Part shown: positions 5,363 to 43,900 of the stretch, piece by piece | Layout: the number at the start of each line of letters is the position of its first letter | Numbering within the stretch: the stretch's first letter is position 1 | Assembly (NCBI RefSeq): GCF_003054705.1 | Contig: NZ_QAYX01000021.1 | Location: 310,001-374,000, forward strand | Source: Opitutus sp. ER46 | GTDB taxonomy: Bacteria; Verrucomicrobiota; Verrucomicrobiia; Opitutales; Opitutaceae | DNA length: 64,000 bases | Reading direction: 5' to 3' | Notes under the pieces: model-generated | Seen by the model: only the letters and a program-made list of their open reading frames with translations | The model's database searches: none | What the model was told of the DNA's origin: nothing | Position numbers and translations under genes: made by a program

Positions 5363-5379
5363 TGCCAGACAGTCTGGCA
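5363..5379. promoter_or_regulatory. 17-bp perfect palindrome over the LacI-type regulator start codon
   Basis: TGCCAGAC (5363-5370), A, GTCTGGCA (5372-5379) is a perfect inverted repeat. Its last base is the A of the ATG of the regulator gene. Length and symmetry fit an operator for a LacI-family dimer, so autorepression is the simplest reading. No Shine-Dalgarno sequence fits next to the ATG. Confidence 0.6.
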
Positions 5380-6488
5380 TGAAGTCATCCCCCGCCCCAA
5401 CCGTCCGTTCACTGGCCCGCGCCCTGGGATTGTCGCACACGACGGTCTCGGATGCGTTGCGGGGCAAGGGACGCGTCGATCCCGAGACGGCCGAGCGCGT
5501 GCGACAGGCGGCGGACGAGGCCGGTTACCGGCGGAATCCGCTGGCGGCGGCGGTGATGTCGGAGTTGCGGCGTTCGCGGGGCGGGACGTTTCGTGGCGTG
5601 CTGGCCGCATTGGACCTCTATGAACCGGGGCGGGCGCCGCATGGGCCGTTTCACCGGGAGCTCCTGCAAGGCGGGCGGAACCGCGCCCTCGAGCTCGGGT
5701 TCAAGCTGGAGGAATTCATCGTCGGCGTGGATGGCATGACGGTGCAGCGCCTCGACGGCATCCTGCAGTCACGCGGTATCAACGGCGTGCTGCTCCTGCC
5801 GTCGTGGTATCCACCGGACTGGACGCAGCTCGACTGGTCGCGCTACGCGGCAATCTATACGGACTACGTGATCGATCGTCCCCCGGTGCACTGCGTGTGC
5901 TGCAACCACTACCGGTCGGTCCTGGCGCTGCTGGCGATCCTGGTGAAGCGCGGGTACCGGCGACCCGGGTTATACGTGGAGCGGGATCGCGACGACCGCA
6001 TGCAGCGGCGGTTCAGCGCGGCGTTTCGTTCGTACCAGGAGGCGCCCGGCACGCCGATCGAGTTTGTGCCGCCCTTGATCACGGATCAGCGCCGGCAGGA
6101 CGAGTTCACGGCCTGGTTCAAGCGCTACAAGCCGGACGTGGTGCTGGGGCATTTTACGGACGCGATCGACTGGATGGAGGCGGCGGGGGCGCGCCTGCCG
6201 GAGACGCACGGCTTTGCGGCGCTCAACGTGCTTTACCGCACGCGGCCGACCGCGGGGTTGGACCAGCAGGCCCAGGAGCTGGGCGCGCGCGCGGTGGAGT
6301 TGCTGATCGCGCAGCTGCAGCGCAACGAAACGGGTATTCCGCAGTGGCCGACCACCACGACGATTCCGGCGCGCTGGGTGGAAGGGCCGACGATCCGGCT
6401 GGCGGCACCGGCGCCTGAGGCTGCCCCGGCGCCAGCGCCTCGCCGGCGGCGAGGGCGCAAGGCTGAAGGGTGCAAGGCTGAAAGCTGA
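5379..6488 (+). CDS. LacI-family transcriptional regulator
   Basis: This 369-residue repressor-type protein has a N-terminal LacI helix-turn-helix at residues about 7-40 (TVRSLARALGLSHTTVSDAL) followed by the hinge helix. The rest is a periplasmic-binding-protein-like sugar-sensing domain (about 65-345). The start at 5379 places the HTH at the normal distance from the N-terminus. The C-terminus is odd: Pro/Ala-rich, then RRRRGRKAEGCKAES, and these last residues together with the stop codon are encoded by a copy of the hairpin/heptad repeat. It follows the GH28 gene by 88 bases and may regulate it and itself. Confidence 0.85.
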   Translation: MKSSPAPTVRSLARALGLSHTTVSDALRGKGRVDPETAERVRQAADEAGYRRNPLAAAVMSELRRSRGGTFRGVLAALDLYEPGRAPHGPFHRELLQGGRNRALELGFKLEEFIVGVDGMTVQRLDGILQSRGINGVLLLPSWYPPDWTQLDWSRYAAIYTDYVIDRPPVHCVCCNHYRSVLALLAILVKRGYRRPGLYVERDRDDRMQRRFSAAFRSYQEAPGTPIEFVPPLITDQRRQDEFTAWFKRYKPDVVLGHFTDAIDWMEAAGARLPETHGFAALNVLYRTRPTAGLDQQAQELGARAVELLIAQLQRNETGIPQWPTTTTIPARWVEGPTIRLAAPAPEAAPAPAPRRRRGRKAEGCKAES

Positions 6489-6498
6489 AGACTGAAGC
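6438..6498 (+). repeat. Composite repeat: CCTCGC hairpin followed by GCTGAA heptads (copy 2)
   Basis: Arms CCTCGC (6438-6443) and GCGAGG (6449-6454) enclose CGGCG. They are followed by GCGCAAGGCTGAA (6455-6467) and further GCTGAAR heptads to about 6498. It overlaps the end of the LacI-type gene and supplies its TGA stop codon. It matches copy 1 at 946-997. Confidence 0.7.
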
Positions 6499-7052: not shown

Positions 7053-7196
7053 GGTTAAGTGAAAGAGGGTCAGGTCCGGCGGTGACCAGCGAATGGCGCG
7101 ATCGCGTCCCCGGGAGCGGAGCGGGCCGACGGAACCTGGAACCTTCCAACCTGGTACTTTCCGACTTGGACGACGGCGGCGGGCGGCCGCCGCCGA
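7053..7196. repeat. Convergent intergenic gap with GGAACCT/TTCCAAC repeats
   Basis: This gap separates two convergent genes. Degenerate heptads such as GGAACCTGGAACC followed by TTCCAACCTGG and ACTTTCCGAC lie at about 7131-7171. They resemble the words at 20-101. The first words are partly complementary to the later ones, so a hairpin is possible. Confidence 0.45.
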
Positions 7197-22552: not shown

Positions 22553-22565
22553 CGCGCCTCTGACG

Positions 22566-22650
22566 GGTCTTTCTCTTACTCCTACTCATTCTCTTGCTCT
22601 CAGCTTTCTCGGCCGGCATCAGCCGGCCGAGAACGAGAACGAGAACCGGG
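22566..22650. terminator. Bidirectional terminator with hexad repeat arms
   Basis: A perfect 12-bp stem, TTCTCGGCCGGC (22606-22617) and GCCGGCCGAGAA (22622-22633), has the tetraloop ATCA. Outside it, the left side is a pyrimidine-rich run of CTCTTAC/TCATTC words. The right side repeats GAGAAC about three times, so the stem can extend imperfectly. It lies between the convergent lutC and EF-hand genes. Confidence 0.8.
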
Positions 22651-22664
22651 CGGCGAGGGCCTGA

Positions 22665-26465: not shown

Positions 26466-26514
26466 GGGAACCGGTTTGCGAGAAAAGCCGCCCGTCGGCA
26501 AGAAAGCGGAGCGC

Positions 26515-26648
26515 CAAGCCGGAAGGCAGAAGCCAGAGGCCAGAGGCCGGATGTCAGATGTCAGCAGTCAGAGGCCAGCAGCGAATCTTGCTGTGGCCAC
26601 TAGCTTCGGGATTCGGGCCTCTGGCTTCCGTCCTCTGGCCTCCGGCTT
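26515..26648 (-). repeat. Inverted pair of GAGGCCA heptad arrays after the cupin stop codon
   Basis: The left arm (26516-26550) repeats AGAGGCC/AGAAGCC words. The right arm (26612-26648) repeats their complements, GGCCTCTGGCTTCCG-like. Read on the minus strand the purine-rich arm begins at the TAA of the cupin gene and the pyrimidine-rich arm comes second. The transcript could fold into a long imperfect hairpin with a loop of roughly 60 bases. The arrangement would suit a terminator or 3'-end stabiliser. Confidence 0.65.
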
Positions 26649-27675
26649 ACTCCTCGCCGTCGTAGTAGTCGGCTTCGGTGGGACGGAAGAACATGCGCGG
26701 GGCGCGGAAACCCCACTTTCTGGAGTCGGGGTAGTGCCAGTAGTCGGCAGGCGGATTGTCGGCGATGAGGTAGAACTCGAGCCGCTCGGTGGCCGAGGCA
26801 TTGCGAATCTGGTGGGGCTCGCCGGGCGGGTGCAGGACGACGTCGCCCGGACCGAACGTATGGGCGGTTTCGCCGGCGCGCACCGTCGCCTGGCCGCGCA
26901 CAATCCAGTACAGCTCCCATTGCGCGGCGTGGCTGTGAAACGGACAGCCGGTCATCCCGGGATCGAGCCGGCTGAATTCGACTTCGAACGGATGGCCCCC
27001 CAGCCCAATCGGCGTGTTGCGCTGCGCGCCGAGCGCGATCGAGAGCTCCTGGCTGGTGCCGAGGAAGCGGCGACGCGGCGAGTCCCAGCTCTCCCAGGGA
27101 ATGTCGTTCGTGTGGCGCAGCCGGTCGGCCAGAGTGGCTCCCGGCGACGCAGACGCGGTCAGCAGCGGGCTGGCCGCAGTGCGGTCGTTCGGCGCTGCCG
27201 CGGAGGACCCGGTCGCCGGGGACAAGTGGGTCGACGCGAGCTTCTGCCCGGGTGCGCGCAGGTGCCAGGTGCCGGAGTCGAGATCGTGCACCGCGTCGAG
27301 CAGCGGCTGATCGGTGACGAGCATGACCTCGAGGTCGACGGAGCCGGAGTTGCGGAGCTGATGGGCCTCCCCGGGAGGGTGGACGAAGACATGGCCGGGA
27401 CGGACGGCGTCGGTGCTCTCGCCCCGGCGGACCTCACCCGCACCGCTCAGGACGAGCACGAACTCCCATTGGGCGAGGTGAGCTTGGAACGGACTGAGCG
27501 CGGCGCCCGGTGGGACGCGGACGAGCTCCACAGCAAACGGATGGCCGCCACCCCATGTGCCGGTGTGCGGTCGGCCGCCGAGCGCGGCGGAGATTTCGCG
27601 GACGAGGGTGCGGTGGCGTCCGGCGTCTGAACGGCGCTCCTGCCATGGCAGAGCGGGGATGTGGGTGTGGTGCAC
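26647..27675 (-). CDS. Double-cupin protein of unknown function
   Basis: This protein of about 342 residues has two cupin domains that resemble one another: one around GGGHPFAVELVRVPPGA to VHPPGEAHQLRN, the other around GGHPFEVEFSRLDPGM to LHPPGEPHQIRN. In domain 2 the metal site HSHAAQWE plus the later His is intact. In domain 1 the first His is Gln (FQAHLAQWE). I propose the GTG at 27675 as the start. The open frame extends to 27807, but that part is promoter-like repeats and unlikely to be translated. No substrate can be assigned. Confidence 0.7.
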   Translation of the reverse strand: MHHTHIPALPWQERRSDAGRHRTLVREISAALGGRPHTGTWGGGHPFAVELVRVPPGAALSPFQAHLAQWEFVLVLSGAGEVRRGESTDAVRPGHVFVHPPGEAHQLRNSGSVDLEVMLVTDQPLLDAVHDLDSGTWHLRAPGQKLASTHLSPATGSSAAAPNDRTAASPLLTASASPGATLADRLRHTNDIPWESWDSPRRRFLGTSQELSIALGAQRNTPIGLGGHPFEVEFSRLDPGMTGCPFHSHAAQWELYWIVRGQATVRAGETAHTFGPGDVVLHPPGEPHQIRNASATERLEFYLIADNPPADYWHYPDSRKWGFRAPRMFFRPTEADYYDGEE

Positions 27676-27794
27676 GGTCGAGTGAAAGTGAGAGTGGGCG
27701 GGCAGGACTAAAGCGTAAGTGCGGGGCGAGTATGCTGGGCGCCGGGCTGTGGGGCACAGTGAACTCCGGGCGCGCGAGTCTGCCAGCTGCGGGG

Positions 27795-27851
27795 AGTATC
27801 CGGACATTCTCCCAAAAGTATCCGGACATTATTGCCGAGTATCTGGGCATT
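27795..27851 (-). promoter_or_regulatory. Three 14-bp direct repeats at 21-22 bp spacing upstream of the cupin gene
   Basis: The word AGTATCCGGACATT occurs at 27795-27808 and 27817-27830, and with two changes (AGTATCTGGGCATT) at 27838-27851. Start-to-start distances are 22 and 21 bases, two helical turns, so all three face the same side of DNA. This is the layout of AraC-family half sites. They lie 120 bases upstream of the proposed cupin start. Confidence 0.65.
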
Positions 27852-27912
27852 ATCCCGCAAGCCACTGCAGAACGGTAGGATATAATTGCAGCCGTCCTGC
27901 CCTCCTGATCGT

Positions 27913-27936
27913 CAGTTTTCGTGTCGGCGAAAACTG
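27913..27936 (-). terminator. Intrinsic terminator after the GH42 gene
   Basis: The arms CAGTTTTCG (27913-27921) and CGAAAACTG (27928-27936) form a perfect 9-bp stem with loop TGTCGG. It lies directly after the GH42 stop codon (27938-27940, minus strand) and ends the GH112-GH42 unit. Confidence 0.7.
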
Positions 27937-27937
27937 G

Positions 27938-30112
27938 CTACTCCTGCCAGACGGCGACGCCGGCGATGGGGAGTTCGCGGGCGCCGAGCAGGAGCTTCGC
28001 GTTGGTGGGGACGGGCGCGGCCTGGGGCTGGGCGGTGAAGTTCGTGGCGATCCAGAGCCCGTCGCGCCAGTCGACGACGAAGCCCTCCGGGTAAGCGGCG
28101 GGCTTGGCGCCGGCGCGGGTGAGGACGTCGCGCACGAGTTCCACCTCGAGTTCGCCGTTCAGGGAGTCGACGCCGATGTAGGTGACGCTGCCGCGGCCGA
28201 GCGGGCGCGTGATGGCGGCGAGGCCGTTGGCGTAGTACTGGTCGAGATATGTCGCGAGCGGGGTGACGCCGGCGTTGGCGCGCGGCGCGAGCACCTCGCC
28301 CCAGGTCTGCCAGGGGTGGGCGCCGCCGGGACCGCGAACCTGGCCGACGTTCGGGGCGGGCAGGGTGTCGTAGAACGAGATGTCGGCGCCGATCAGGTCG
28401 AGGATCGGCGCGGCCCACGGGCCTTCCCAGAGCTGGCCGCGGCGGTCCTTCTGGCCGGTGCGGCAGGTGAGGATGAGGTGGCCGCCCTGTTCCACGTAGC
28501 TGCGCCAGCGGGCGACGAGCTTCGCGTCGAGGAGCTGGTAGGCGGGGGCGACAACAAACGGGTAGGCGGAGATGTCGCGGTCGCCGGTGAGGATGTCGAC
28601 GGGCGCGCCGGCGCGTTTGAGCGCGGCGTAGTACTTCATCAGGTGGCCGTACGTGTCCCACGCCTTGTGCTGCTTGTGGTTATCGATGTCCCAGCGGTTC
28701 TCGTAGTCGTACAGCAGCGCGGTGCGCCGGGCGGCGTACGCGGCGGGGAGCGGGGCGCCGGGCTGGGCGACGCGGCGGAGCGCGACGATGTCCTGCATGG
28801 TCTGGGCGTATTGCAGGCCGCCGGTGGACGGGGTGACGCCGTCGGTGCCCACGAGGCCGTAGTGGTAGAGTTCGGCGCCGTAGAGCGGCTGGCGGTAGCG
28901 ATAGGCGCAGGCGAACTTGGAGCCGCTGGCGAAGATGCGCATGAGCCAGAGGCGGACGGCGCCCGGGTAAGGCTGCGGGTTGACGTCGCCCCAGTTCACC
29001 TGGCCGGGCTGGAGCTCCATGATGCCGGCCTGGCCGTTGATGCTGCGCATGAAGTCGCCGGCGAAGGACATCACGTACGGGTCGCCGAGCCGGAACCCGA
29101 GCGGGCCGCGGTTGGCGTTGCCGTGGGCAGGGTAGTGCGTCCACGAGACGACGTCGAAGTCTGCGCCGTTGAGCACGGGGTTCACGGCGCTGAAGTTGTG
29201 GATGTGGTTCGTGGTGATCCACTGCCGGTGGCCGCAATACTGGCGGAGGATGTTGGTCTGGAAGCGCAGGTAGTCGGCGGTCTCCTCGGCGAACCAGCGC
29301 TGGGCGTCGAGCATCTGGTGCGGGTTGAACTGGGCGACGTACTCCTTTTCGTTCGGCAGCCGGATCTGGCCGAAGTGCTGGTACATCTGGGACCAGAACG
29401 CGTTGCCCCAGTCGCGGTTGAGGGCGTCGATCGTGCCGTACTTGGTTTTCAACCACGCCTGGAACTTGCGCTGGGAGGACGCGCTGAAGTCCGGCTCCTT
29501 GCCGTAGTGGGTGAGCTCGTTGTCGAGTTGCCAGCCCCAGACGCGCGGGTCGTGGCCGTAGCGGCGGCCGAGCTCGTGGACGATCTTGGCCACGTAGCCG
29601 CGGTAGACGTCGGAGCTCCACGTGGCGTGCTGGCGCGTGCCGTGGATCATGGTGCGGCCGTTGGCGTCGACCATGAGAACCTCGGGGTGCTTTTCAGTGA
29701 GCCAGGCCGGGGGCGTCGGCGTGGGCGTGCAGAGGATGACCTTGAGCCCCTGGTCGGCGGACAGCTGGATGACGCGGTCGAGCCAGGCGAAGTCGAACTT
29801 CCCCTCGGTGGGCTCCATGAAGGCCCAGGCGAACTCGCCGACGTGGATGAACTCGAGCCCGAGCTCGCGGATATGGGCGATGTCGCGGGCCCACTGGTCG
29901 GCCGGCCAGGCCTCGGGGTAGTAGTACACGCCGATGTTCATCAGATCGGCGGCGGGAAACAGGAAGCGGGTGGGCTCGCTGGCCGCGGGTTTCGCGGGAG
30001 TCGTGGCGGCGGCAGCCGGCTGGGCGGTCGCGGGGGTGGCGGCGCGGGCGACGAAGGGGAGGGCGGCGAGCGTGCTGAGCGCGAGGGCGAGGCGAAGGCG
30101 TTTGGGGTGCAT
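27938..30112 (-). CDS. Exported GH42 beta-galactosidase-like enzyme
   Basis: This 724-residue glycoside hydrolase family 42 protein is predicted to release terminal beta-linked galactose. The acid/base Glu is in WGWQLDNELTHYG and the nucleophile Glu is in GIMELQPGQVNW. The N-terminal barrel starts NIGVYYYPEAWP. It has a signal peptide (about residues 1-24) followed by an Ala/Pro/Thr linker, which is unusual since most GH42 enzymes are intracellular. I chose the ATG at 30112 for that reason; the open frame to 30412 overlaps GH112. It follows GH112 on the same strand. Confidence 0.9.
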   Translation of the reverse strand: MHPKRLRLALALSTLAALPFVARAATPATAQPAAAATTPAKPAASEPTRFLFPAADLMNIGVYYYPEAWPADQWARDIAHIRELGLEFIHVGEFAWAFMEPTEGKFDFAWLDRVIQLSADQGLKVILCTPTPTPPAWLTEKHPEVLMVDANGRTMIHGTRQHATWSSDVYRGYVAKIVHELGRRYGHDPRVWGWQLDNELTHYGKEPDFSASSQRKFQAWLKTKYGTIDALNRDWGNAFWSQMYQHFGQIRLPNEKEYVAQFNPHQMLDAQRWFAEETADYLRFQTNILRQYCGHRQWITTNHIHNFSAVNPVLNGADFDVVSWTHYPAHGNANRGPLGFRLGDPYVMSFAGDFMRSINGQAGIMELQPGQVNWGDVNPQPYPGAVRLWLMRIFASGSKFACAYRYRQPLYGAELYHYGLVGTDGVTPSTGGLQYAQTMQDIVALRRVAQPGAPLPAAYAARRTALLYDYENRWDIDNHKQHKAWDTYGHLMKYYAALKRAGAPVDILTGDRDISAYPFVVAPAYQLLDAKLVARWRSYVEQGGHLILTCRTGQKDRRGQLWEGPWAAPILDLIGADISFYDTLPAPNVGQVRGPGGAHPWQTWGEVLAPRANAGVTPLATYLDQYYANGLAAITRPLGRGSVTYIGVDSLNGELEVELVRDVLTRAGAKPAAYPEGFVVDWRDGLWIATNFTAQPQAAPVPTNAKLLLGARELPIAGVAVWQE

Positions 30113-30130
30113 GGCGAAAGGGGAAAACGG

Positions 30131-30177
30131 TTCGTTCCCGGCCTCACCACCGCGACGGCGGGAGGAACGGGAACGAA
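30131..30177 (-). other. Inverted repeat between GH112 and GH42 genes
   Basis: The 10-bp arms TTCGTTCCCG (30131-30140) and CGGGAACGAA (30168-30177) are perfect complements around 27 bases that contain a smaller CCGC/GCGG pair. It lies in the 119-base gap within the two-gene unit, in the leader of GH42. It could be an attenuator or processing site. Confidence 0.5.
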
Positions 30178-30231
30178 GAGGATGACGAACCACGGGGCGG
30201 AAAGGATTACCCTGCCGCCCCGGCAGGAGGA

Positions 30232-32442
30232 CTAGACGTCGAGGATCGCGATGTCGTGCGCGGCGAGGTCGACGCGTTTCTGCGTGCGGCCGTCGGCGAG
30301 CGTGACGGTGGTCTGCTGCGGCTCGCCGGCGTTGTTGATGACGACGAGCTTTTTCTCGGCGGCGAACCAGGCGCACTCGGTGCGGACGTTGGTCGTGTTC
30401 CAGACCGGCCACGCCGCTTCCTGCGCCGCGGCCCAGAAGAGGGCGCGGTGGAGGAGCCGGGTGTTTTCGGCGGTGAACTTGAAGCCCGACAGGTACACGG
30501 CGCGGCCGCGGCCGAACGCATGCGTCGTCAGACGCGGCGTGCCCTCGCGCTCGGCGAGGACCGTCGTCGTGCCGTCGAGGACGTACGTGCCCTCGACGTC
30601 GCGACCGAGGTCCGGGGCGCTCGTGAGGTCGGCGGTGATGAAGTGGTCGGCGATGCCGGCGACGCGGCCCGCGGGGGCGGCGTACTTGTATTTGCCGTTG
30701 GCGATGCGCTCACCGCGGTCGCGGTCGACACCGAGGACGGGCGCCAGCCGGAAGAACTGGCCCGCCGTGGCGAATGCGGACGGCTCGCCGATGCCGACGA
30801 CGGCGCCGCCCTTGCCGGCCCAGTTGGTCAGGCAGGCGACGACCTCGGGATCGTTCCAGTAGTGGCCGCCGCTCCAGGCGCTGCCGTCGCGGCCGCAATT
30901 GATGATGACCTTCACGCCGCGCGGCACGCCGCTCTCCTTGAGGTCGTCGAAGCTGATGAAGGACACGTCGACCGGCAGGCCGGCGAGGGCCTCGATGACG
31001 TGGTAGAGCTCAACGCTGGCCGTGAAGTGGCCGGAGCAGGTCCAGGCGCGCAGGTCGCCCCACGCGGTCAGCACGGCGACCTTGAACGGCGCGGTGTAGG
31101 GCTTGCCGGCGGCGTGGAAGGACTTCAGCAGGCGGAACTCGCGGGCGAGCTGCTCGATGTAGTCCTGAAAGTCCGGGAACGGCTCGACGAGCGAGAGGTA
31201 GCCGCCGAGGCCGATGCGATCGATCGGCGCGCGCAGGATGCCGCGGCGGGCGTCGATCCAGAAGTTCTTCGCATCGAGTGTCGGGTTGCCGCCGGCCTTG
31301 AAGGTCGGCTCGCCCTTGAGCCCCGTCGGGAACAGGTACGGGTGCAGCCGGAGCTCGTGGGTCTTCACGCCCTGGGCGTGGGCGCAGAGGCGGACCTCGA
31401 ACGCGTTGAACACACACTTGATCAGGCCGTCGAAGCCGAACTCGGCGAACCGCGCGCTGTTGGGCTCCACGCCGATCCAGTGGTCATCGTAGAACACGTA
31501 GGCCTTCTTGCCGGCGGCGTGGACGCGGTCGATGCACTGGCGGCCGAAGGCGATGACGAAGTCGTGGATGAACGCCATGTAGTCGCGGTAGCGGCGCGAC
31601 GGGGCGTTGTGGGTGGAGTTGTAGAGCCCGCCGTTGACGAAGTCCTCGGAGGTGAGCGCGTAGCCGTAGACCTTCTTGAATTCGGTGAGGGCGCGCGGGC
31701 TGACGGTCATCGCGTAGTCACCCCAATCCGAATACACGTCGCGCAACGTGGCCTGGTTGGCGCCCCAGAACCAGGAGAAGTTGTAGAACATCGACGTGAA
31801 GCGGACCACGCGGGTGTCCGGATGGTCGGCGAGCCAGCCGTCGAGGAACTTGAGGATCACCCGCTGGGTTTCCGGATGCATCGGATCCACGGCCGCGAGG
31901 TGTTCGCGGTCGCCCCAATTGTTGGTGATGTGGTTGTACATCGAGATCTCCTCCCAGATGCGGAAGGCGAGGAAGTTCACGGTGTAGCTGTGGCCGGGAA
32001 TTGTGTCGCGGACGGTGACCGTGCCCTTGCGGACATTGAAGTCCCACGCGCGCTTGGCGACCTCGGTGCCGGTGGTGCGGTCGAACACCTGCCACCACTT
32101 CTTCGGGTCGTCTTCGACGTTGAGCACGAATTGCTCGGTGAAGTAGCCGGCGAGCGGGGTGATCGTGACGGTCTTCTTCTCCGCCACGACCGGGTAGCTC
32201 ATCAGGAAGTTCTGCTGGAGCTTGTTCCGGTTGACGCGCGCCCAGGGCTGCACGGAGCGGACCAGGCAGACGGTCGAGTAGATGTCGTAGCCGGACTGGA
32301 CGATCTCGGGCGACAGCTGGGTGCCGTCGGAATCGCGGATCGTGTCGGCGCCCCACTTCTTGGCGAGGCGCAGCGTGAGTTGCTCGTAACCGGCTTCACC
32401 GGGCAGCGTGAAATCGCCGGAATTGAGAGAGGAAGGTTGCAT
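30232..32442 (-). CDS. GH112 phosphorylase (galactosyl-HexNAc or galactosyl-rhamnose type)
   Basis: This 736-residue enzyme without a signal peptide belongs to glycoside hydrolase family 112. The family uses phosphate to split galactosyl-beta-1,3-N-acetylhexosamine or galactosyl-beta-1,4-L-rhamnose, giving galactose 1-phosphate. The segments VVRFTSMFYNFSWFWG, the acidic region around LTSEDFVNGG, and KKAYVFYDDHWIGVEP match the family. The choice of acceptor cannot be read safely. Rhamnose is favoured here because rhaB, the aldolase and a GH28 pectinase are in the same window. It is the first gene of a pair with GH42. Confidence 0.88.
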   Translation of the reverse strand: MQPSSLNSGDFTLPGEAGYEQLTLRLAKKWGADTIRDSDGTQLSPEIVQSGYDIYSTVCLVRSVQPWARVNRNKLQQNFLMSYPVVAEKKTVTITPLAGYFTEQFVLNVEDDPKKWWQVFDRTTGTEVAKRAWDFNVRKGTVTVRDTIPGHSYTVNFLAFRIWEEISMYNHITNNWGDREHLAAVDPMHPETQRVILKFLDGWLADHPDTRVVRFTSMFYNFSWFWGANQATLRDVYSDWGDYAMTVSPRALTEFKKVYGYALTSEDFVNGGLYNSTHNAPSRRYRDYMAFIHDFVIAFGRQCIDRVHAAGKKAYVFYDDHWIGVEPNSARFAEFGFDGLIKCVFNAFEVRLCAHAQGVKTHELRLHPYLFPTGLKGEPTFKAGGNPTLDAKNFWIDARRGILRAPIDRIGLGGYLSLVEPFPDFQDYIEQLAREFRLLKSFHAAGKPYTAPFKVAVLTAWGDLRAWTCSGHFTASVELYHVIEALAGLPVDVSFISFDDLKESGVPRGVKVIINCGRDGSAWSGGHYWNDPEVVACLTNWAGKGGAVVGIGEPSAFATAGQFFRLAPVLGVDRDRGERIANGKYKYAAPAGRVAGIADHFITADLTSAPDLGRDVEGTYVLDGTTTVLAEREGTPRLTTHAFGRGRAVYLSGFKFTAENTRLLHRALFWAAAQEAAWPVWNTTNVRTECAWFAAEKKLVVINNAGEPQQTTVTLADGRTQKRVDLAAHDIAILDV

Positions 32443-32544
32443 GGGAGGATGCGACGCCGGAGCTGACGACGATCAGCCCGCAGGCGCAACAGCATCGTCG
32501 GCGGGGCCGCCGCGCCGGGAAAACCCTCCGGGGGGATGACAGTC

Positions 32545-32585
32545 AGGCTTTTTCGGGGCGAGCGGGGCTCGCCCCGAAAAAGCCT
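32545..32585 (-). terminator. 18-bp perfect hairpin after nrfA
   Basis: The arms at 32545-32562 and 32568-32585 are perfect 18-bp complements (AGGCTTTTTCGGGGCGAG and its complement) around a five-base loop. It lies four bases after the nrfA stop codon and upstream of GH112. A/T tracts in the stem make it usable on both strands. It insulates the nrf and GH112 units. Confidence 0.8.
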
Positions 32586-32589
32586 ATGG

Positions 32590-34053
32590 TCAGTTGCTGG
32601 CGGTTTTGACCGGCTGGGGGGCGTGCGTCGGGGTGATCTTCGCGGCTTCGATCTCGCCCTGGCGGGCGTAGTCGATGGCTTCGGCGAGGATGCGGGCGGC
32701 CTCCTGCGAGGCATGGAAGCCCATGGAGTTCTCGGCGTAGACGAAGTCGAGGCGCCATTGGGCCTTGCGCTGCAGTTCGCGGGCGGCCTTGAGCTGCTCG
32801 GCGGAGGCGCCGGACTTCTCGGCGTTGATCAGCGCGTCGATCAGGCCGACGACGGCCACCTGGCCGCGGTCGAGCAGCAGGCGGTTGCGGTCCTGGATGG
32901 TTTCGATGCGGGCCTTGAGCTCGGTCTCGGGCACGCGGTGGCAGGTCTGGCAGGCGGCGGCGAGGTTGAGCATCGGCGAGCTGACGTGGTGGTTGCTCAC
33001 CTTGATCGCGCCTTCGCGCTGGTACGGCATGTGGCAGTCGGCGCAGGCGACGCCGGCGCGCGCGTGCACGCCCTGGCTCCACATTTCGAACTCGGGGTGC
33101 TGCGCCTTGAGGACGCCGGCGCCGGTCTCCTTGTGCGTCCAGTCCTTGTAGTTCTGGGCGTCGTAATACGCCTCGATGTTCTCCACGCGCAGGCCCTTGT
33201 CCCACGGGTTGGTCACGAGCTTCTTGTCGCCCTTGAAGTAGTACTCGTTGTGGCACTGGGCGCAGACCATGGAGCGCATCTCCTGGCGGGAAGCTTCGGT
33301 GTTGGGGTTGTATTCGCCCTGGCGGCCCTCGCGGCGCCAGCGCTCGATGCTGGGCAGGTGCGGGGTGGCGTAGTCGGAGCGGGCGAGCGCGCGGATGCCG
33401 TTGAGGAAGGCGGGCCGGGAAACGCGCAGGTTCATCGTGTCGGCCTCATGGCAGTCGATGCAGGAGACGGGATGCTCGACCAGTTTGGTGACCTCGGCGT
33501 ACGGCTGCGGACAGATGACCTCGAAACCCTTCTGGATCTGCTCCTCGCGGTGCTCCTTGCCGGCGGGCGCGCCAGCCTTGAGGCCGGCTTCGATGTAGGC
33601 GGGGATGACGGAGGCGTGGCACTGGAGGCAGGCGCCGGGTTGCTTGAACTGCTTCACGCGTTCGGTCTCGCGCTGGTCAACCAGCATGTAGGCGTGGCCG
33701 CGTTCCTCGCGGTAATCCACGGCGAAGGCGTAGCCGTTGAAGATGCGCTTCCAGGCCGGGTCACGCTCGAGGTGGGAGAACGCCTCGCTGCCGCCGTACT
33801 TGGTGTAGATCTTGTCCACCGTCCGCTTGTAGCTGTCGTACTGGCGCGGGTAATTCTTTCCCCAGAGAACGGGGTCCGTCGTGCTGTCGTCGACGTTGAC
33901 GACGCGGAATACGTGCTGCGTCGCCTCGGCCTGACGGTTCACGATGTTCTGGTAGAGCAGCAGCACCAGAAACGTGGCCAGCGCGACACCGGCGATCACG
34001 GCGACGTAGACCCAGAGGGCGACGCCACGACGGGAGGAGAAAGGCGAGTTCAT
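32590..34053 (-). CDS. nrfA: NrfA, pentahaem cytochrome c nitrite reductase
   Basis: This 487-residue periplasmic enzyme reduces nitrite to ammonium with six electrons. It has an N-terminal hydrophobic segment (about 10-34). It has five haem motifs: Cys142-His146 (CLQCH), Cys198-His202 (CIDCH), Cys264-His268 (CAQCH), Cys337-His341 (CADCH) and Cys368-His372 (CQTCH). The active-site Tyr region (CHNEYYFKG) and QHPEFEMW are present. The first motif is CxxCH, not the CxxCK of E. coli NrfA, as in some other lineages. The start at 34053 is fixed by the membrane segment. It is 52 bases after nrfH. Confidence 0.93.
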   Translation of the reverse strand: MNSPFSSRRGVALWVYVAVIAGVALATFLVLLLYQNIVNRQAEATQHVFRVVNVDDSTTDPVLWGKNYPRQYDSYKRTVDKIYTKYGGSEAFSHLERDPAWKRIFNGYAFAVDYREERGHAYMLVDQRETERVKQFKQPGACLQCHASVIPAYIEAGLKAGAPAGKEHREEQIQKGFEVICPQPYAEVTKLVEHPVSCIDCHEADTMNLRVSRPAFLNGIRALARSDYATPHLPSIERWRREGRQGEYNPNTEASRQEMRSMVCAQCHNEYYFKGDKKLVTNPWDKGLRVENIEAYYDAQNYKDWTHKETGAGVLKAQHPEFEMWSQGVHARAGVACADCHMPYQREGAIKVSNHHVSSPMLNLAAACQTCHRVPETELKARIETIQDRNRLLLDRGQVAVVGLIDALINAEKSGASAEQLKAARELQRKAQWRLDFVYAENSMGFHASQEAARILAEAIDYARQGEIEAAKITPTHAPQPVKTASN

Positions 34054-34105
34054 GAGGGAAAGAAGTCGGACGGGCGGAGTGAAGGAGGGCGGAGGTGGCG
34101 GGCGT

Positions 34106-34588
34106 TCAGATGGTCGGGCCGTGGCCGACGTCCCGGTGACAGTGGATGCAGTCGAGCATCTCGCGGCTCTTGCCGGGGTGGGTGTTGATTCCGGATACGA
34201 TCTGCTGGTGGCAGGACACGCAGTTGCGCTGCAGCACGGTGGAGTTCTTGGGGCGGATCTGGATCGGCTCGTGAAAATCCTGGAGCGTGAACCCCTTCGA
34301 GTGCCAGTAGCCGTTCTCCGCCTTCGTGAGGTACTTCCCGAGCAGATCGTGCGGGGTGTGGCAGTCGTTGCAGGTGGCGACCGCATGATGCGGCGACTTC
34401 AGCCAGCCGTCGTATTGCTCCCGCATGATGTGGCAGTTCACGCAGGCCTTCGGATCGTTCGAAAAATACGAGAGGCCGCGGGCGTAGTAGAACGTGTACG
34501 AACCCGCGCCGGCGAATAGCCCAACCGTGCTCGCCAACGCGAGCAGCAGCAGGATCTTGGTACGTGTCCGAGGTGGGGTCACGGGCAT
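34106..34588 (-). CDS. nrfH: NrfH, tetrahaem quinol-oxidising subunit
   Basis: This 160-residue membrane-anchored cytochrome of the NapC/NirT family has one N-terminal membrane helix (about 11-34). It has four haem motifs: CVNCH (49-53), CNDCH (73-77), CVSCH (123-127) and CIHCH (147-151). Met55 directly after the first motif fits the unusual Met ligand of NrfH. It passes electrons from the quinone pool to NrfA. It is the first gene of nrfHA, and an FNR-type box lies 81 bases upstream. Confidence 0.93.
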   Translation of the reverse strand: MPVTPPRTRTKILLLLALASTVGLFAGAGSYTFYYARGLSYFSNDPKACVNCHIMREQYDGWLKSPHHAVATCNDCHTPHDLLGKYLTKAENGYWHSKGFTLQDFHEPIQIRPKNSTVLQRNCVSCHQQIVSGINTHPGKSREMLDCIHCHRDVGHGPTI

Positions 34589-34662
34589 GCGGCTCAGCGT
34601 CAGTTCGGAGGTGGGATGGTCAAAGCAGAACCGCCGCTGTTCCCGGGAAACTGGCCGGGCGC

Positions 34663-34676
34663 ATGATCTGGATCAA
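34663..34676 (-). promoter_or_regulatory. FNR/CRP-type box upstream of nrfHA
   Basis: Read on the minus strand the site is TTGATCCAGATCAT. It differs at one base from the FNR consensus TTGATnnnnATCAA. Its centre is about 81 bases upstream of the nrfH start codon. FNR-type activation of nrf genes under anoxia is established in other bacteria. Confidence 0.65.
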
Positions 34677-34696
34677 GCCTGCGCGCGCGGGCAAAG

Positions 34697-34862
34697 ACGG
34701 AAAGCTGAAGCCGTCCCGGGGAAAGGCTGAAAGCTGAAGGCGGAAGGCTGAAGTCGAACTCGATTTCCGGCTTCCGGCTTCTGGCCTCTGGCATCCGGGC
34801 ATCTGGCCTCTGGCGTCCGGCCTCTGGCTTCTGGCCTCGGGCTTCCGGCTTCCGACCTCTGG
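34697..34862 (-). repeat. Heptad arrays between the esterase gene and nrfH
   Basis: From 34763 to 34862 the plus strand repeats 7-base words of the kind TCTGGCC, TCCGGCT and TCTGGCT about thirteen times. From 34697 to 34755 it has GCTGAAG-type heptads. On the minus strand the purine-rich CRGARGC heptads follow the esterase stop codon directly, then CTTCAGC words come second. The two halves are only partly complementary. The FNR box lies just beyond, on the nrfH side. Confidence 0.65.
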
Positions 34863-34865
34863 TTG

Positions 34866-36590
34866 TCAGCGACTGATGCGGAGGCGGGTGGGGCGGGCGG
34901 GAGGAATGACGACACCCGGGACGGTGATATGCCCCGTGGGGTCGACGCGGATACGCGTCGGAGCTGCGCTGTCCTGGATGACCGTAAGCTCGTCACCGGG
35001 ACGCGGGCGGAAATGCTGGACGCGGCGCAGGGTCACGTCGGTCCGCACGGGTTCGGCGCTCACGGAGGGCTCCGCTTGGAGGGTGATCTCGTAATGGTCG
35101 GGCTCGTCCACGATTCCAGACCAGTCGAGCCCGCGGTTCATCCAGCCCACGATGTCGCCCGAGGTGGGCGCACCGTCGCCGGGGTCGCGATTGGTCGAGG
35201 TGTGCGAGAACGCGGGGAAGCTCTCGTTCAGCCGGAAACGCCGCAGCCGCTTCTTCCAGCCCTTGATGTCGTCCGGCGCGTCGCGGGCGACCGTTCCGTG
35301 CGTGCCATCATTCCAATGGGCGGCGAAGCCTTGCCGGGATTCGTCGAGGGTCCGGTAGAAGCCGGGGTTGTTCGCCCACGGAATCGACGTGTCCTGCCGG
35401 CCATTCAGGATGAACAGGAACGGTAGGTCGGCGGACGCGCCGGTGACATACCGGCCGGTGTCCATCCGTTCGAGAAGACGGGCGCCATCGTCTGTCAACA
35501 GGTCCGACGCGATGGGGCCGCCCACGAGTGGCTCGAGCCGGTGGGCGGTGAAGCCGGCGGCGGCTGAGCTGGCGTAACGATACGCCACAATCGGCACATT
35601 GGCGTGGCACGCCGCGAACAACTCGGGATGCCGATAGGCGAAGGTGAGTGTGCCACACCCGCCCATCGAACTGCCGTTGCAGTACCAGCGGTTGCGGTCA
35701 GTGCGGTAGTGGCGCTGCACCCAGTCGAGAAGCCAGAGCAGCCGACGCTCGGTGTAGGCGGTCGGGACGCCCTGCGCCGTGGTCGAGCGGTCGTAAATCT
35801 GCGAACTCGTGCCATACCAGAACGTCCAAATCGCCGGAACGCCGCTGTCGCCCGCCTCCGTGAAGGGGCGGTTGATCCAGTTGCGGTCGGTGGGCCGCAC
35901 CACAACCTCGTCCTCCGCGATGCGCACGCTGAAACGGAAGGGCAGTCCCTCCCGCCAACCCATGCTGGCGTCGCCAAACATCAGATACTCGCTGCCAGCG
36001 ACCACGCCGCCCTTCGCGTGCAGTTCCATGCGGAGCGGCAGTCCCTCGCCCGCTCCCGGCGCGGGCGCCGGCGCATCGGGTTGCCAGATGGGTTCGATCG
36101 CCCGGTGCGAGACGGCGACACCCGCCGCCGTGGCGTTGCGGCCGAGGCGCACGCTCCGGTCCTCGGTGCCGTCTGGGCCGGTGGTGGTCACCGCGAAGAA
36201 CCGTGCCTCGGCGGCGGCGCTTGGCGTGTGGACGAACAAGCCGCCGCCGGGAGCGAGCCGGTCCGAGTGCGCGACGAGGCGAAAGCCGGGGGCGGCCGCG
36301 GGCTTGGCGTCCCGGGCAAACGCGGCCGGGTTCTCCCACCAGTCGGTCGCGCTGTGCGCCTCAATGTGGTGGCCGATGCGCGTGGCCGCCGCGACATCGC
36401 GGATCGGCGCCGCCGCGACGTACACGTTGAAGGTCGTGCCGGGCGGGGTGTCCGATTCCGCCCAAGTGAGGAAGACCTGGCCCTGGCGAGGCGCGGCGTG
36501 GAGCTGGCTTGCGGCTGGTTGCGCGCGGAGCGCGGCGGCCGGGAGGAGGCACGTGAGCAGAAGGGCGAGGTAACGGAGCAGCGGGTGCAT
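34866..36590 (-). CDS. Exported alpha/beta-hydrolase, probable carbohydrate esterase
   Basis: This 574-residue protein has a signal peptide (about residues 1-24). A beta-rich region of about 100 residues follows (QVFLTWAESDTPPGTTFNVYV), resembling a fibronectin type III fold. A catalytic region has the nucleophile elbow GSSMGG with Ser308 and a candidate catalytic His in WNDGTHG. The C-terminal 100 residues are beta-rich. It is a serine hydrolase acting outside the cytoplasm. A polysaccharide deacetylase or feruloyl/glucuronoyl esterase role is plausible but not shown. The start at 36590 is fixed by the signal peptide. Confidence 0.75.
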   Translation of the reverse strand: MHPLLRYLALLLTCLLPAAALRAQPAASQLHAAPRQGQVFLTWAESDTPPGTTFNVYVAAAPIRDVAAATRIGHHIEAHSATDWWENPAAFARDAKPAAAPGFRLVAHSDRLAPGGGLFVHTPSAAAEARFFAVTTTGPDGTEDRSVRLGRNATAAGVAVSHRAIEPIWQPDAPAPAPGAGEGLPLRMELHAKGGVVAGSEYLMFGDASMGWREGLPFRFSVRIAEDEVVVRPTDRNWINRPFTEAGDSGVPAIWTFWYGTSSQIYDRSTTAQGVPTAYTERRLLWLLDWVQRHYRTDRNRWYCNGSSMGGCGTLTFAYRHPELFAACHANVPIVAYRYASSAAAGFTAHRLEPLVGGPIASDLLTDDGARLLERMDTGRYVTGASADLPFLFILNGRQDTSIPWANNPGFYRTLDESRQGFAAHWNDGTHGTVARDAPDDIKGWKKRLRRFRLNESFPAFSHTSTNRDPGDGAPTSGDIVGWMNRGLDWSGIVDEPDHYEITLQAEPSVSAEPVRTDVTLRRVQHFRPRPGDELTVIQDSAAPTRIRVDPTGHITVPGVVIPPARPTRLRISR

Positions 36591-36755
36591 GGGGCGCGAG
36601 CGTGGCGGCGAAGCGGCCCGGTCGCTCAAGTACGGTGACGTGCGACGCGCTGGGACCGAGTGCAACCAGGGTAGATGATGCCCTCCGATGCTCGGCGCTG
36701 CCATTGGCCGATCGGTCAGCGGCGACCGGCCCCCGCGGGCCTCGCGGTGGCCGAC

Positions 36756-37571
36756 TCAAGCTTTGGCGGGAGCGGGCTCCAGGGTGACCGGATTGGTGAG
36801 GGCGCCGATCTTCTCGATCTCGATCGTGATGCTGTCGCCGGCTTTCAACCACACCGGCGGGCGGCGCGCGAAGCCGACGCCATGCGGCGTGCCGGTGAGG
36901 ATTACCGTGCCGGGGAGGAGGGTCTTGGAGCCGCTGAGAAACTCGATGATCGCCGGCACGTCGAAGATCATGTCGTTCGTGTTCCAGTCCTGCATGACCT
37001 GGCCATTCAGGATGGTCTTCAGCTGGAGCGCATTCGGGTTCGGGATCTCGTCCTTGGTGACGAGCACCGGCCCGAGCGGACAGAAGGTGTCGAAGCTCTT
37101 GCCCTGGCACCACTGGCCGGCGCCGGCGTCGCGCTGCCAGTCGCGGGCGGAGACGTCGTTGGCGCAGGTGTAGCCAAGGACGTAATCGAGGGCGTTGGCG
37201 CGCGTCGCGTTCTTGCAGCGCCGTCCGATCACGACCGCCAGTTCGCATTCGTAGTCCACGCGGTGGCTGGCGAGGTGCTGGGGAATCTCGATCGGCTCGC
37301 CGGGGTGCTGGAGGGCGGCCGTGTTCTTGATGAACAGGACGGGGTACTGCGGCAGCGGGCTTTTGCTCTCGGCGGCGTGCTGCTTGTAGTTGAGCCCGAT
37401 GCACAGGAGGTTCGTCGGCACGACGGGCGCGAGCGACTTGCCCGGCGTGACGACGCGGTTCGTTACCTGGAAGTCGCCGAAGATGTCCCCGACAACTTCG
37501 AGCGCGCGGCCATCAGGCTGCAACGCGGCGTAGGCGGGTCCGGAAGCGGTGAGGTGACGGAGCAGGCGCAT
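36756..37571 (-). CDS. Fumarylacetoacetate hydrolase family protein
   Basis: This 271-residue cytoplasmic enzyme belongs to the FAH family, which cleaves or decarboxylates beta-diketo acids with a divalent metal. The metal-ligand acids are in DYECELAVVIGR, and GYTCANDVSARDWQ, KSFDTFCPLGP and TVILTGTPHGVG are typical. Family members include steps in catechol, fucose and rhamnose catabolism, so the substrate is open. It is separated from gcvP by a long heptad hairpin. Confidence 0.88.
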   Translation of the reverse strand: MRLLRHLTASGPAYAALQPDGRALEVVGDIFGDFQVTNRVVTPGKSLAPVVPTNLLCIGLNYKQHAAESKSPLPQYPVLFIKNTAALQHPGEPIEIPQHLASHRVDYECELAVVIGRRCKNATRANALDYVLGYTCANDVSARDWQRDAGAGQWCQGKSFDTFCPLGPVLVTKDEIPNPNALQLKTILNGQVMQDWNTNDMIFDVPAIIEFLSGSKTLLPGTVILTGTPHGVGFARRPPVWLKAGDSITIEIEKIGALTNPVTLEPAPAKA

Positions 37572-37580
37572 CGGGAAGAA

Positions 37581-37749
37581 AAGGCTGAAAAGCTGAAGGA
37601 CTGAAGGGCTGAAAAGGAGAAGGCTGAAGGGACGAAGGCTGAAAGCTGAAGGGAGCGGGAGCAGGCTGGGGGAACGAAGGGCTAAACTTGGCCGTCTTTT
37701 AGCCTTCGGTCTTTCAGCGGTTTCTTCCTCAGCTTTCAGCCTTCAGCAT

Positions 37750-37758
<9 letters not shown>
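37581..37758 (-). repeat. Inverted GCTGAAR heptad arrays between gcvP and the FAH gene
   Basis: The left arm (37581-37653) repeats GCTGAAR/ACTGAAG words on the plus strand. The right arm (37696-37758) repeats the complements, CTTTCAGC/CTTCAGC. Read along the gcvP transcript, the first repeat unit, GGCTGAA, supplies the gcvP TGA stop. The first arm can pair with the second across a loop of about 40 bases. The second arm ends about nine bases before the FAH start codon. Confidence 0.75.
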
Positions 37759-40623
<2,865 letters not shown>

Positions 40624-40967: not shown

Positions 40968-43900
40968 ATGTCCTTATCCCAACTCGTTACGCGGCGCGCC
41001 ATCGTCGCGCTAATGCTCCTGGCCACCCTCGTGGTGGCTCCCATCGCCCGCGCCTACCAGGGCGTCACCCTGCAGACGCAGCTCGGCAATCCCAGCAATG
41101 CCACGGCCGATGCGACCAACCACACGCATTACCTGATCCAGCGCGACCAGTACGTGCTCGATTACAACGACACGAACTTCGAGTCGAACTGGGTGAGCTG
41201 GAGCCTCACCAGCTCGGACCGCGGCGGCACCGATCGGACGGACAAGTTCGCCGCCGACCCGCTGCTGCCGAGCGGTTTCACGGCCATCGACCAGAACGGC
41301 TACAAGGGCTCCGGCTACGACCGCGGCCACATGTGCCCGTCGGCCGATCGCACGACCAGCGTGGCGGACAACGAGGCCACGTTCTTCATGACGAACATGG
41401 TGCCGCAGACGGCGGACAACAACCAGGGCGTCTGGAATAACTTCGAGGGCTACTGCCGCGATCTCGCCGCCGCCGGCAATGAACTGCTGATCATCTCGGG
41501 TCCCGGCGGGTTCGGCAGCTCGAAGATCGCCAGTGGCGTGGCGATCCCCGGGTACACCTGGAAGATCGTCACCGTGGTGCCATTGGGCTCCGGCTCGGCC
41601 GTCAGTCGCATCACGGCCGCTGGCGCGGCTTCGATCCGCGTCATCGCAATCAAGGTGCCGAACATCGCGGGTATTCGCAGCAATCCCTGGCAGAACTACG
41701 TGACGAGCGCGGCGCAGCTGGAGTCTGACACCGGTCTCACGTTCTTCACTGAACTCGATACGGCCAGCGCCGCGACGCTTCGTGCGAAGGTCGACGGCTC
41801 CACCACGAGCGGCCTGCCGGTGATCTCCCTGCAGCCGGCCGGCCAGTCCGCCGCCGCGGGCGGCATGGCGACGTTCTCCGTCACCGCCACCGATGGCGGC
41901 AACCCGCCGCTCTCCTACCAGTGGTTCAAGGGCGAGGACGCGATCAGCGGCGCCACCAACGCGACCTTCACGCTCACGAACGTGCAGGCGACCGATGTGG
42001 CCGGCTACTCGGTCCGCGTCACCAACACCGTCGGCTTCGTCACGAGCTCCGTCGCCAACCTCGTCGTCACCGGCCTGCCGCCCGCGATCACCAGCGCGCC
42101 GCTCTCGCAGACCGTCGGCGCCGGCGCGAACGCGGTCTTTTCCGTCACGGCCAGTGGCTCGCCGACGCTCACCTATCAGTGGCGCAAGGACGGCAACCCG
42201 CTTGGCAATGGCACCGAGATCACCGGCGCCACCACGCCGACGCTCACGCTGACGAACGTCCAGGCCGCCGCGCAGGGCTCCTACGATGTCGTGGTCACGA
42301 ACAGCGTCTCCTCCGCGACCAGCGCTGCGGTCACCCTGACGGTCACGGCCACCGCGCCGACCATCACCTCGCAGCCGGCTTCCCAGTCGCTCGGGCTCGG
42401 CAGCACCGCGACCTTCGTCGTGGTCGCGAAAGGCTCGGCGCCGCTCAGCTACCAGTGGCGCAAGGGCGGGGCGGACCTCACGACCAACAGCTCGGCGACC
42501 ACCCCGACGCTCGTCATCACGGGCATGACCGCCGACGACGCCGGTGACTACGATGTGGTCGTCACCAACACCGCCGGCCACGCCACCAGCAGTGTGGCGA
42601 CGCTGTCTGTCGCCTCGGCGACCGAGGCCGCGGTCTTCTACACCGGCGGCACGTACTCCCAGAACTTCGATTCGCTGCCGAGCGCCACGGGCAACTTCAC
42701 CCTGACCGGCACCGGCCCGATCAATCTCTCCGCCGCGCCGATCTCGGCCACCGGGCTGGGCGGTTGGAGCTTTGCGAAGACGATGGGCAACGCGACGGTT
42801 GCCTTGTTCAACGTCGGCACCGGCAGCGGCAACACCGGTTCGCTGTACTCGTTTGGCGCCGCCGCCGCGACCGAGCGCGCGCTGGGGGCGCTCGCGAGCA
42901 ACACGCTCACTTGCGGCTTCGGGGTCACGCTTGTGAACCAGACCGGCCACACCATCACCGAGTTCACGATTTCCTACACCGGTGAGCAGTGGCGGCGGGG
43001 CAATACCACCGCCGGCAGCCAGGATACGTTGGCGTTCGGCTACCAGGTGGGCGGCACCGACCTTGCGACGGGGACGTTTACCGATGTCGCGACGCTCAAG
43101 TTCGTCTCGCCCATCACGACGGCGTCGGCCGTGGCGCTCGACGGCAATCTCGCCGCCAACCAGGCCGTGATCAGTGGCTCCGTCACGGGCATCACGTGGA
43201 ACCCCGGCGAGAAGCTCATCCTCCGCTGGAATGACGTGAACATCAGCGGCTCCGATGACGGGCTCGCGATCGACAATTTCTCCTTCACCACCAGCACCAC
43301 CGGCCCGGTAGGACCGGCCGTGACCGCGACCTCGCCGATCAGCGGCGCGAGCGACGTCGCCCTCAACAGCCCCGTCACGATCACCTTCAACCAGGAGGTG
43401 AATGTCACCAGCGGGTGGGTCGCGCTCACGAGCTCGACGGAGGGCAGCATCAGCCCCGTCATCGCGACGACCGATCACAAGACCTTCACGCTCACGCCGC
43501 CGGCCAACTACGGCTACAGCGACACCATCGGCGTCACCGTCTACGGCGCCAACGTGACCAGCGAGTCGACCGGCCTGCATCCCGAGGGGGACTACACGTT
43601 CTCCTTCGTGACCGCCGCCCCCGTGGCTCCTTCGATCACGACGCCGCCCGCGAACCAGACGGTCGCCGCCGGTGAGACCGCCACCTTCACCGTGGTGGCC
43701 GATGGCACCCAGCCCTTGACCTACCAGTGGCGCAAGGACGGCGCGGACCTCAATATCACCACCAATCCCAGCGCCGCCACCGCCACGCTCGCCCTGGCCA
43801 ACGTCCAGGCTGGTGACATGGGCAGCTACGACGTCGTCGTCAGCAACGGCGTCCTCCCCGTCGCGACGAGCACGGGCGCCACGCTCACCGTCACCGCCGC

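Follow-up and report, generated by a model that had tools for sequence, protein, structure and literature searches.

Gene-less repeat arrays at gene ends of an Opitutus genome resemble the arms of S23p hairpin elements

Introduction

Intervening sequences (IVSs) are little-understood elements that have been described chiefly in rRNA genes. In the passages of PMC4990558 that deal with it, the Coxiella IVS has a 28-bp inverted-repeat stem with GACAGAT heptads upstream of an open reading frame (ORF) for the protein S23p, and both decay of this ORF and excision of the IVS by RNase III are described. We analyzed a stretch of 64,000 nucleotides from Opitutus sp. ER46 (contig NZ_QAYX01000021.1, positions 310,001 to 374,000; referred to here as the window), in which arrays of degenerate 6- to 8-bp repeats lie at the ends of ORFs. 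These arrays contain no S23p gene, and they resemble the arms of hairpin elements that do.

Several other systems invite comparison. The short tandemly repeated repetitive sequences (STRRs) of cyanobacteria are degenerate heptad repeats, while repetitive extragenic palindromic (REP) doublets forming hairpins (REPINs) and bacterial interspersed mosaic elements (BIMEs) are dispersed extragenic inverted pairs. In Xanthomonas and Nostoc, GGGAATC and GGGGA(C/T)T heptads lie close to stops when on the coding strand and close to starts when on the non-coding strand, and the sections on these repeats also report a preference for four units, discussed in terms of G-quadruplexes (PMC4692102). Degenerate heptads pair into a hairpin in the P6b stem of the Nostoc tRNA-Leu intron, according to the part of PMC3488679 devoted to that stem, and the TAACTGA heptads of Beggiatoaceae, as presented in the relevant part of PMC4679880, are dispersed, intergenic, direct, and mostly located just upstream of starts.

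An initial sequence-only reading of the window listed seven arrays, all of which we found at the positions given, and regarded their arrangement as new. That last point does not hold, since heptads near stops with the same strand preference are already described for Xanthomonas and Nostoc in the sections cited above (PMC4692102). What we found (i.e., degenerate tandem heptads, intergenic and near ORF ends) is what characterizes repeats of the STRR or Xanthomonas-Nostoc type, and periods of 6 and 8 bp occur as well.

S23p genes between repeat arms

In the full element, an S23p (PF05635) gene occupies the loop between two arms; the first has at least about four degenerate 6- to 8-mers (approximately 28 to 35 nt), and the other is its complement, built from the same word. 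Most of the S23p genes that we sampled are flanked in this way, including one within a 23S rRNA gene. The copy in the source genome (L054, 11756-12242) has hexad arms and a 147-aa ORF in its loop. Its pyrimidine arm stops a few bases upstream of the ATG, and its purine arm encodes the C-terminal residues and the stop (GAG-TAA) of S23p. The protein matches PF05635 (23S_rRNA_IVP, the 23S rRNA-intervening-sequence protein or S23p; E value, 2e-18) and TIGR02436 (four helix bundle protein), and one solved relative was found (PDB 2gsc, XCC0516).

Five further clear S23p genes (L098, L127, L134, L138, and L164) were detected by profile search at loci chosen for their heptad pattern. Each of the five was flanked on both sides by arrays, of which some were short, and in L098 and L127 the arms were made of the window's own word. 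Two scans of viral contigs with S23p proteins found no relative. The S23p gene of L127 (3124-3522, minus strand) has GAGGCCA arms, the upstream array encodes the end of the upstream ORF, and the element lies between ORFs that we take to be carA and carB.

Three S23p queries were also run against plasmid records and returned 7, 24, and 32 overlapping records, mostly from cyanobacteria. From these, we picked 22 distinct places (19 cyanobacterial) without having seen their flanks. Duplicates, near-duplicates, and weak or partial matches were left out (H6, H13, H20, H25, H27, H28, H30, H31, H54, H56, H57, H61, and H63, together with a second place in the record of H12). Six plasmid loci were read by eye before the array thresholds were fixed. 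An array was scored if a period of 6 to 8 bp occurred within 120 bp of the gene. The controls were 50 complete coding sequences (CDSs) from L354 to L369 that did not adjoin an S23p gene; four more were dropped because of short flanks.

Arrays were present on both sides of 16 of the 22 S23p genes, compared with 0 of the 50 other CDSs, and on at least one side of 21 S23p genes, compared with 7 CDSs. The two flanks matched in inverted orientation at 15 S23p genes and at a single control. Of 17 loci whose arms were both clear, 15 had a purine arm upstream and a pyrimidine arm downstream, and none had the reverse order. Median arm lengths were 31.5 and 33 nt, each taken over the 20 loci where an arm could be measured on the side in question. 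In L352 and L353, the arm and the S23p stop overlap. In L363 (Azospirillum), a full-length 23S rRNA match encloses the S23p gene, which makes this a classical IVS; the right arm has a scored period of 7, and the heptads of the left arm (CAGAGGACGGATGACAGAGGACGGAGGACAG) were recognized by eye. The style of the arms is alike at S23p genes inside and outside rRNA.

Two further features of the plasmid loci were observed. S23p elements with arrays are located between clustered regularly interspaced short palindromic repeat (CRISPR) genes in L348, L354, and L351; the neighbors are cas6 and cas4 in Anabaena sp. 90 and Pseudanabaena galeata, whose arm words differ, and cas10 and a Cmr3 gene in Picosynechococcus. 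In L365 (2571-3249) and L358 (3004-3310), the S23p gene is annotated in two pieces, which suggests gene decay inside the arms.

Gene-less arrays at gene ends of the source genome

From the source genome (5.71 Mb; GC, 67%), we sampled 864 kb, comprising the window and 40 stretches spaced at fixed steps. Among protein matches to named loci, the best was from Opitutaceae (62%), followed by Holophagaceae (54%) and Opitutae (52%), which places the genome tentatively; no 16S gene was found. Gene calls came from a self-trained codon model, not from a published caller. Intergenic gaps of at least 30 bp contained 38, 28, and 6 periodic segments at lags 6, 7, and 8, respectively, versus means of 0, 0, and 0.05 in 20 dinucleotide shuffles. 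The 7-bp period noticed at first is therefore real, but 7 is not the only unit. With a lower threshold, lag 7 gave 41 intergenic and 3 coding segments, and lag 6 gave 52 and 12. The arrays are thus mostly intergenic, although not exclusively so, as had been supposed; one in the window (6459-6498) holds the stop of the ORF called at 5379-6488.

The words of the source genome fall into families of period 7 (GCCRGAR/GTCAGAN, GCTGAAR, and GAATGNA), period 6 (GAGNAA, AGTGAR, and GAGAAC), and period 8 (CCCTCAAT). Of three families proposed for the window, that of AACTTTCC appeared by eye weaker than GCTGAAR and the CRGARGC type. Matches to four units of GCCRGAR also occur beyond the clade (among the matches listed, in Phycisphaerales, Acidobacteria, Gemmatimonadetes, Opitutae, Desulfobacterales, and others). 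The 19 genomes counted have 2 to 200 matches each; by eye, GCCRGAR palindromes adjoin stops at several loci of those genomes.

Placement relative to stops is nonrandom. Array edges were a median of 18 bp from the stop, and 28 of 61 were no more than 15 bp away; for starts, the median was 97 bp, and 9 of 51 were that close. In co-directional gaps of each of the four genomes tested, arrays were nearer the stop than random placement would put them (P = 0.0012 to 0.0058). Convergent gaps held arrays in 16 of 93 cases, co-directional gaps in 29 of 367, and divergent gaps in 11 of 101.

Polarity was counted outward from the nearest ORF end for arrays with a clear purine bias located within 60 bp of that end. 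Arrays farther than 60 bp from both ORF ends were excluded, as were those with 42 to 58% purines (6 in the source genome, 7 in G008, 3 in G031, and 6 in G019; the last three genomes are relatives). In the source genome, 25 of 26 heptad arrays, 8 of 9 octad arrays, and 10 of 11 AGTGAR hexad arrays were purine-rich outward. A general rule that the purine arm comes first thus stands for heptads of this genome but is reversed in the other hexads (GAGNAA and GAGAAC), all 17 of which were pyrimidine-rich outward. Heptad polarity was weaker in the relatives (G008, 10 of 15, P = 0.3; G031, 7 of 8; G019, 2 of 4), and the octads of G019 were consistent in 11 of 11 cases. A four-core GAGNAA pattern had 291 matches genome-wide; the 100 examined represented 48 runs and 13 inverted pairs, with the pyrimidine arm first in all 13 pairs (12 distinct left arms).

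The gene-less arrays of the source genome resemble the L054 element in word style and arm order. For heptads, the purine arm comes first both in the gene-bearing plasmid elements and in the gene-less arrays; for hexads, the pyrimidine arm comes first both in L054 and in its gene-less counterparts.

Many array gaps are palindromes whose apex holds a GC hairpin or an unrelated loop. Comparison of all 42 array gaps of 60 to 400 bp with 38 of the 316 other gaps indicated that array gaps fold better (Mann-Whitney P = 0.011). An inverted partner within the top 5% was present in 17 of 55 array gaps of the source genome (Wilcoxon P = 0.0006), and enrichment was also seen in G031 (P = 0.001). Hexad pairs showed weak arm-specific similarity (P = 0.04). 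By eye, the arrays at L230 4344-4678 revealed no compensatory pairing between G008 and G006, and one apparently coordinated change was seen at L237 7834.

The proposal that these arrays act as hairpin terminators is supported in its hairpin part for many copies, given the folds and the comparison of gaps; the arrays in divergent gaps do not suit the terminator part. By eye, a short U-run follows the stem of the gap at 37572 only, and none follows the stem at 26495. The companion idea of a universal translation stop was rejected because 25 of 51 stop-adjacent arrays contain no stop codon in any frame, with stops in all three frames in 11 of 51. Both stop-adjacent GCTGAAR arrays do present stops in all three frames.

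Arrays in the window

Terminal inverted repeats form a stem in four gaps of the window, with fold z scores of -4.9, -1.3, -4.9, and -2.7 (i.e., one of the four is weak). The first, at 26495-26646 on the minus strand, is a GCCRGAR/GTCAGAN heptad palindrome (z, -4.9) located directly 3' of the stop of a cupin gene (26647-27531). Read on the minus strand, it has a purine arm at approximately 26602-26646 and a pyrimidine arm at approximately 26516-26582, and its loop is without an S23p gene. The second (34690-34865, minus strand; z, -1.3, not significant) combines GCCRGAR with a GCTGAAR part directly 3' of the stop of an esterase-like gene (34866-36590); its purine arm spans about 34765-34859 and its pyrimidine arm about 34697-34753. 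A GCTGAAR palindrome at 37572-37757 (minus strand; z, -4.9) fills the gap between gcvP (37750-40623) and an FAA-hydrolase gene (36756-37571). The fourth, a hexad palindrome at 22553-22664 between convergent genes (z, -2.7), was absent from the initial list; its pyrimidine arm comes first, and a GC hairpin forms the apex.

The remaining arrays are simpler. GCTGAAR units form the array at 6459-6498 (plus strand), which includes an ORF stop as noted above, and a single arm at 966-997 (plus strand), upstream of the start of an SDR gene (142-924, minus strand). A GGAACCT/AACCTTCC array (7131-7171) lies in the convergent gap 7053-7196, and a weak stretch of the AACTTTCC type (1-101; by eye) lies 41 bp past the stop of gene 142-924. 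By our gene calls, six of the seven listed arrays are at a stop or up to 41 bp past one, the exception being 966-997. No Rfam family reached its gathering score in the window, and the window arrays are intergenic and not in 23S rRNA.

The array at 37572-37757 overlaps the gcvP stop. Orthologues align to residue 954 of 957; the window gcvP as called thus runs three residues past the alignment with its relatives, and the extra codons and the stop lie in the array (37750-37757). Of 21 relatives' loci that reach past this stop, four (G005, G004, G013, and G011) have arrays of other words in the gap, and the other 17 have other hairpins, terminator-like stems, or neither (by eye). We also saw, by eye, REP-like palindromes in the gcvP 3' gaps of relatives L184, L186, L190, L208, L192, and L194; in L184, L190, and L208, they are followed by an ORF that, judged by eye from its motif, resembles a REP-associated tyrosine transposase (RAYT).

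Two other features of the window were observed. A dispersed intergenic repeat that is not of the 6- to 8-bp kind (27794-27856) consists of direct copies of approximately GAGTATCCGGACATTAT followed by TAATTGCAGCC, and it recurs at L031 2519, L035 10777, L045 1405, L049 3697, L056 15331, and L060 9921. A very long called ORF (about 3,088 aa) occupies 41013-50276 on the plus strand.

Unit number, word order, and turnover

Some families favor four units, as seen in 10 of 12 GTTGAAR runs of G008 and 10 of 22 AGTGAR runs of the source genome; the value for GTTGAGN in G008 was 5 of 16. GCCRGAN in the source genome is not quantized (four units in 4 of 90 runs; longest, 27 units). GTTGAAR copies have a common tail like GANCGGA (by eye). 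Within GAGNAA, the order A-G-T occurred 15 times versus 4.9 expected, a count reached by none of 2,000 shuffles, and a 29-mer is repeated at different loci of G008 and G006. Word order and a 29-mer common to separate loci indicate that the arms are dispersed repeats and not products of local slippage alone.

G008 and G006, whose matching blocks are 84 to 92% identical, were compared at 21 orthologous gaps. Arrays were present in six of these gaps, and in five of the six they occurred in both species. Units had changed in concert (GTTGAAA ×4 against GTTGAGA ×4; about a dozen GACCGGA against AATCGGA), and unit number differed between the species. The same genomes contain a dispersed element of approximately 150 to 170 bp whose left arm is four heptads (L233 16906-17066 in G008; at least 37 places in G006). 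In 12 aligned copies, the core was conserved and the outer flanks were not.

Discussion

We favor, with moderate confidence, the view that the window arrays are arms of S23p/IVS-like hairpin elements, here gene-less, at ORF boundaries. Because they have no S23p ORF in the loop and do not lie in 23S rRNA, we do not class them as IVSs; they are probably best set beside IVSs as a related gene-less form. They would be relatives of S23p elements that lost the gene or never possessed it. By analogy with the rRNA IVS, their RNA hairpins would probably be cut by RNase III, and a site at an ORF end would be tolerated, or cost little, because the transcript would fold and be cut there. The arms may be renewed via unit slippage and copying between elements, and the purine-first order may reflect use of the upstream arm in ribosome binding.

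Several points weigh against this view. We infer that the gene-less window arrays descend from S23p elements or are lone arms of them; a profile search of the window found no S23p gene, and the 864 kb of source genome contained only one clear copy. Palindromes were not enriched in G008 (P = 0.4) or G019 (P = 0.7). Arms of a pair in the source genome showed no closer likeness than arrays of other gaps (1 of 24 versus 1.4 expected), and in-register pairing is therefore not conserved. A weak S23p-profile match in G019 (L255; E value, 8e-6) is without clear arrays, and L134 and L138, both from Bacteroidales, are not simply purine first by eye. Among the plasmid loci, L367 has no arrays, both arms are purine in L354 and pyrimidine in L356, and one side is missing or ambiguous in L350, L358, L363, and L369. 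Moreover, this set is largely cyanobacterial (19 of 22) and includes some near relatives.

It is conceivable, though unlikely, that the arrays instead belong to an independent gene-end system of hairpins, acting as terminators or in mRNA 3'-end protection, and that S23p elements merely land in these hairpins, so that the arms are part of the target. The closeness of arrays to stops, the better folding of array gaps, and the other hairpins or terminator-like stems seen by eye in the same gcvP gap of relatives all fit such a system. It is harder to reconcile with arrays in divergent gaps, with the IVS of L363, which has heptads within an insert in 23S rRNA, and with arms that encode the S23p C terminus and stop (L054) or overlap the S23p stop (L352 and L353).

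We consider it improbable that the arrays are neutral minisatellites generated by replication slippage in relaxed intergenic DNA. Slippage would account for runs of up to 27 GCCRGAN units and for unit numbers that vary across species, but not for words and word order common to distant loci, a fixed polarity, the association with S23p, or the fixed size of some families (e.g., GTTGAAR in G008, though not GTTGAGN). Mobilization by a RAYT transposase, as for REPIN/BIME-like elements, is highly improbable, because the arms are direct 6- to 8-mer repeats and not small hairpins, even though inverted pairs with differing loops, and the REP-like palindromes that some relatives show by eye in this gcvP gap, point in that direction.

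S23p has been reported as a homopentamer of four-helix bundles. If the arrays are arms of S23p elements, a broader proposal can be put forward, which we hold tentatively and with some doubt. Most degenerate intergenic heptad arrays of bacteria, including cyanobacterial STRRs, the Xanthomonas repeats, and arrays of Acidobacteria, Planctomycetes, Verrucomicrobia, and others, might be arms of a single phylum-spanning class of hairpins, with S23p as its protein, classical 23S rRNA IVSs as its rRNA branch, and gene-less palindromes as its miniatures. S23p would then recognize the heptad stem and aid spread or persistence, and the purine-first order would survive from an upstream arm that served the S23p ORF as its ribosome-binding region. 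We found no work joining intergenic heptads with S23p, in a literature search whose S23p-directed part was narrow; this is weak evidence of novelty.

Heptads at bacterial gene ends and S23p have both been unexplained so far, and a common anatomy makes both testable. The questions that it opens concern the binding target of S23p, the mobility of the arms, and the cutting of mRNA hairpins by RNase III. Annotators would also gain a signature for C termini and stops that are encoded by arrays.

Compared with known systems, the arrays share with REPINs and BIMEs the character of dispersed extragenic inverted pairs and differ in that their arms are periodic words. As far as the cited part of PMC4679880 goes, the TAACTGA repeats of Beggiatoaceae are likewise dispersed intergenic direct heptads, from unrelated phyla, and differ in their start-side placement. 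The Nostoc tRNA-Leu heptads, as covered in the stem-related part of PMC3488679, also pair into hairpins, but in an intron stem, whereas the source-genome arrays are gene-end elements. The Xanthomonas and Nostoc heptads are alike in the period of 7, strand placement at ORF ends, and four units in some families; in the sections concerned (PMC4692102), one word is given per genome and no link with S23p is made, whereas the source genome has several words without G-tracts and periods of 6 and 8 as well. Words that keep four units but have no G-tracts show that G-quadruplexes do not suffice to explain the preference for four units. The 23S rRNA IVS with S23p/IVP (PF05635, TIGR02436; PDB 2gsc) is comparable in its stem of approximately 28 bp, in its stem-region heptads in Coxiella (as described in the IVS passages of PMC4990558) and in Azospirillum L363, and in the S23p ORF, which L054 carries in its loop. 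The window copies differ from it in being intergenic and without an S23p ORF.

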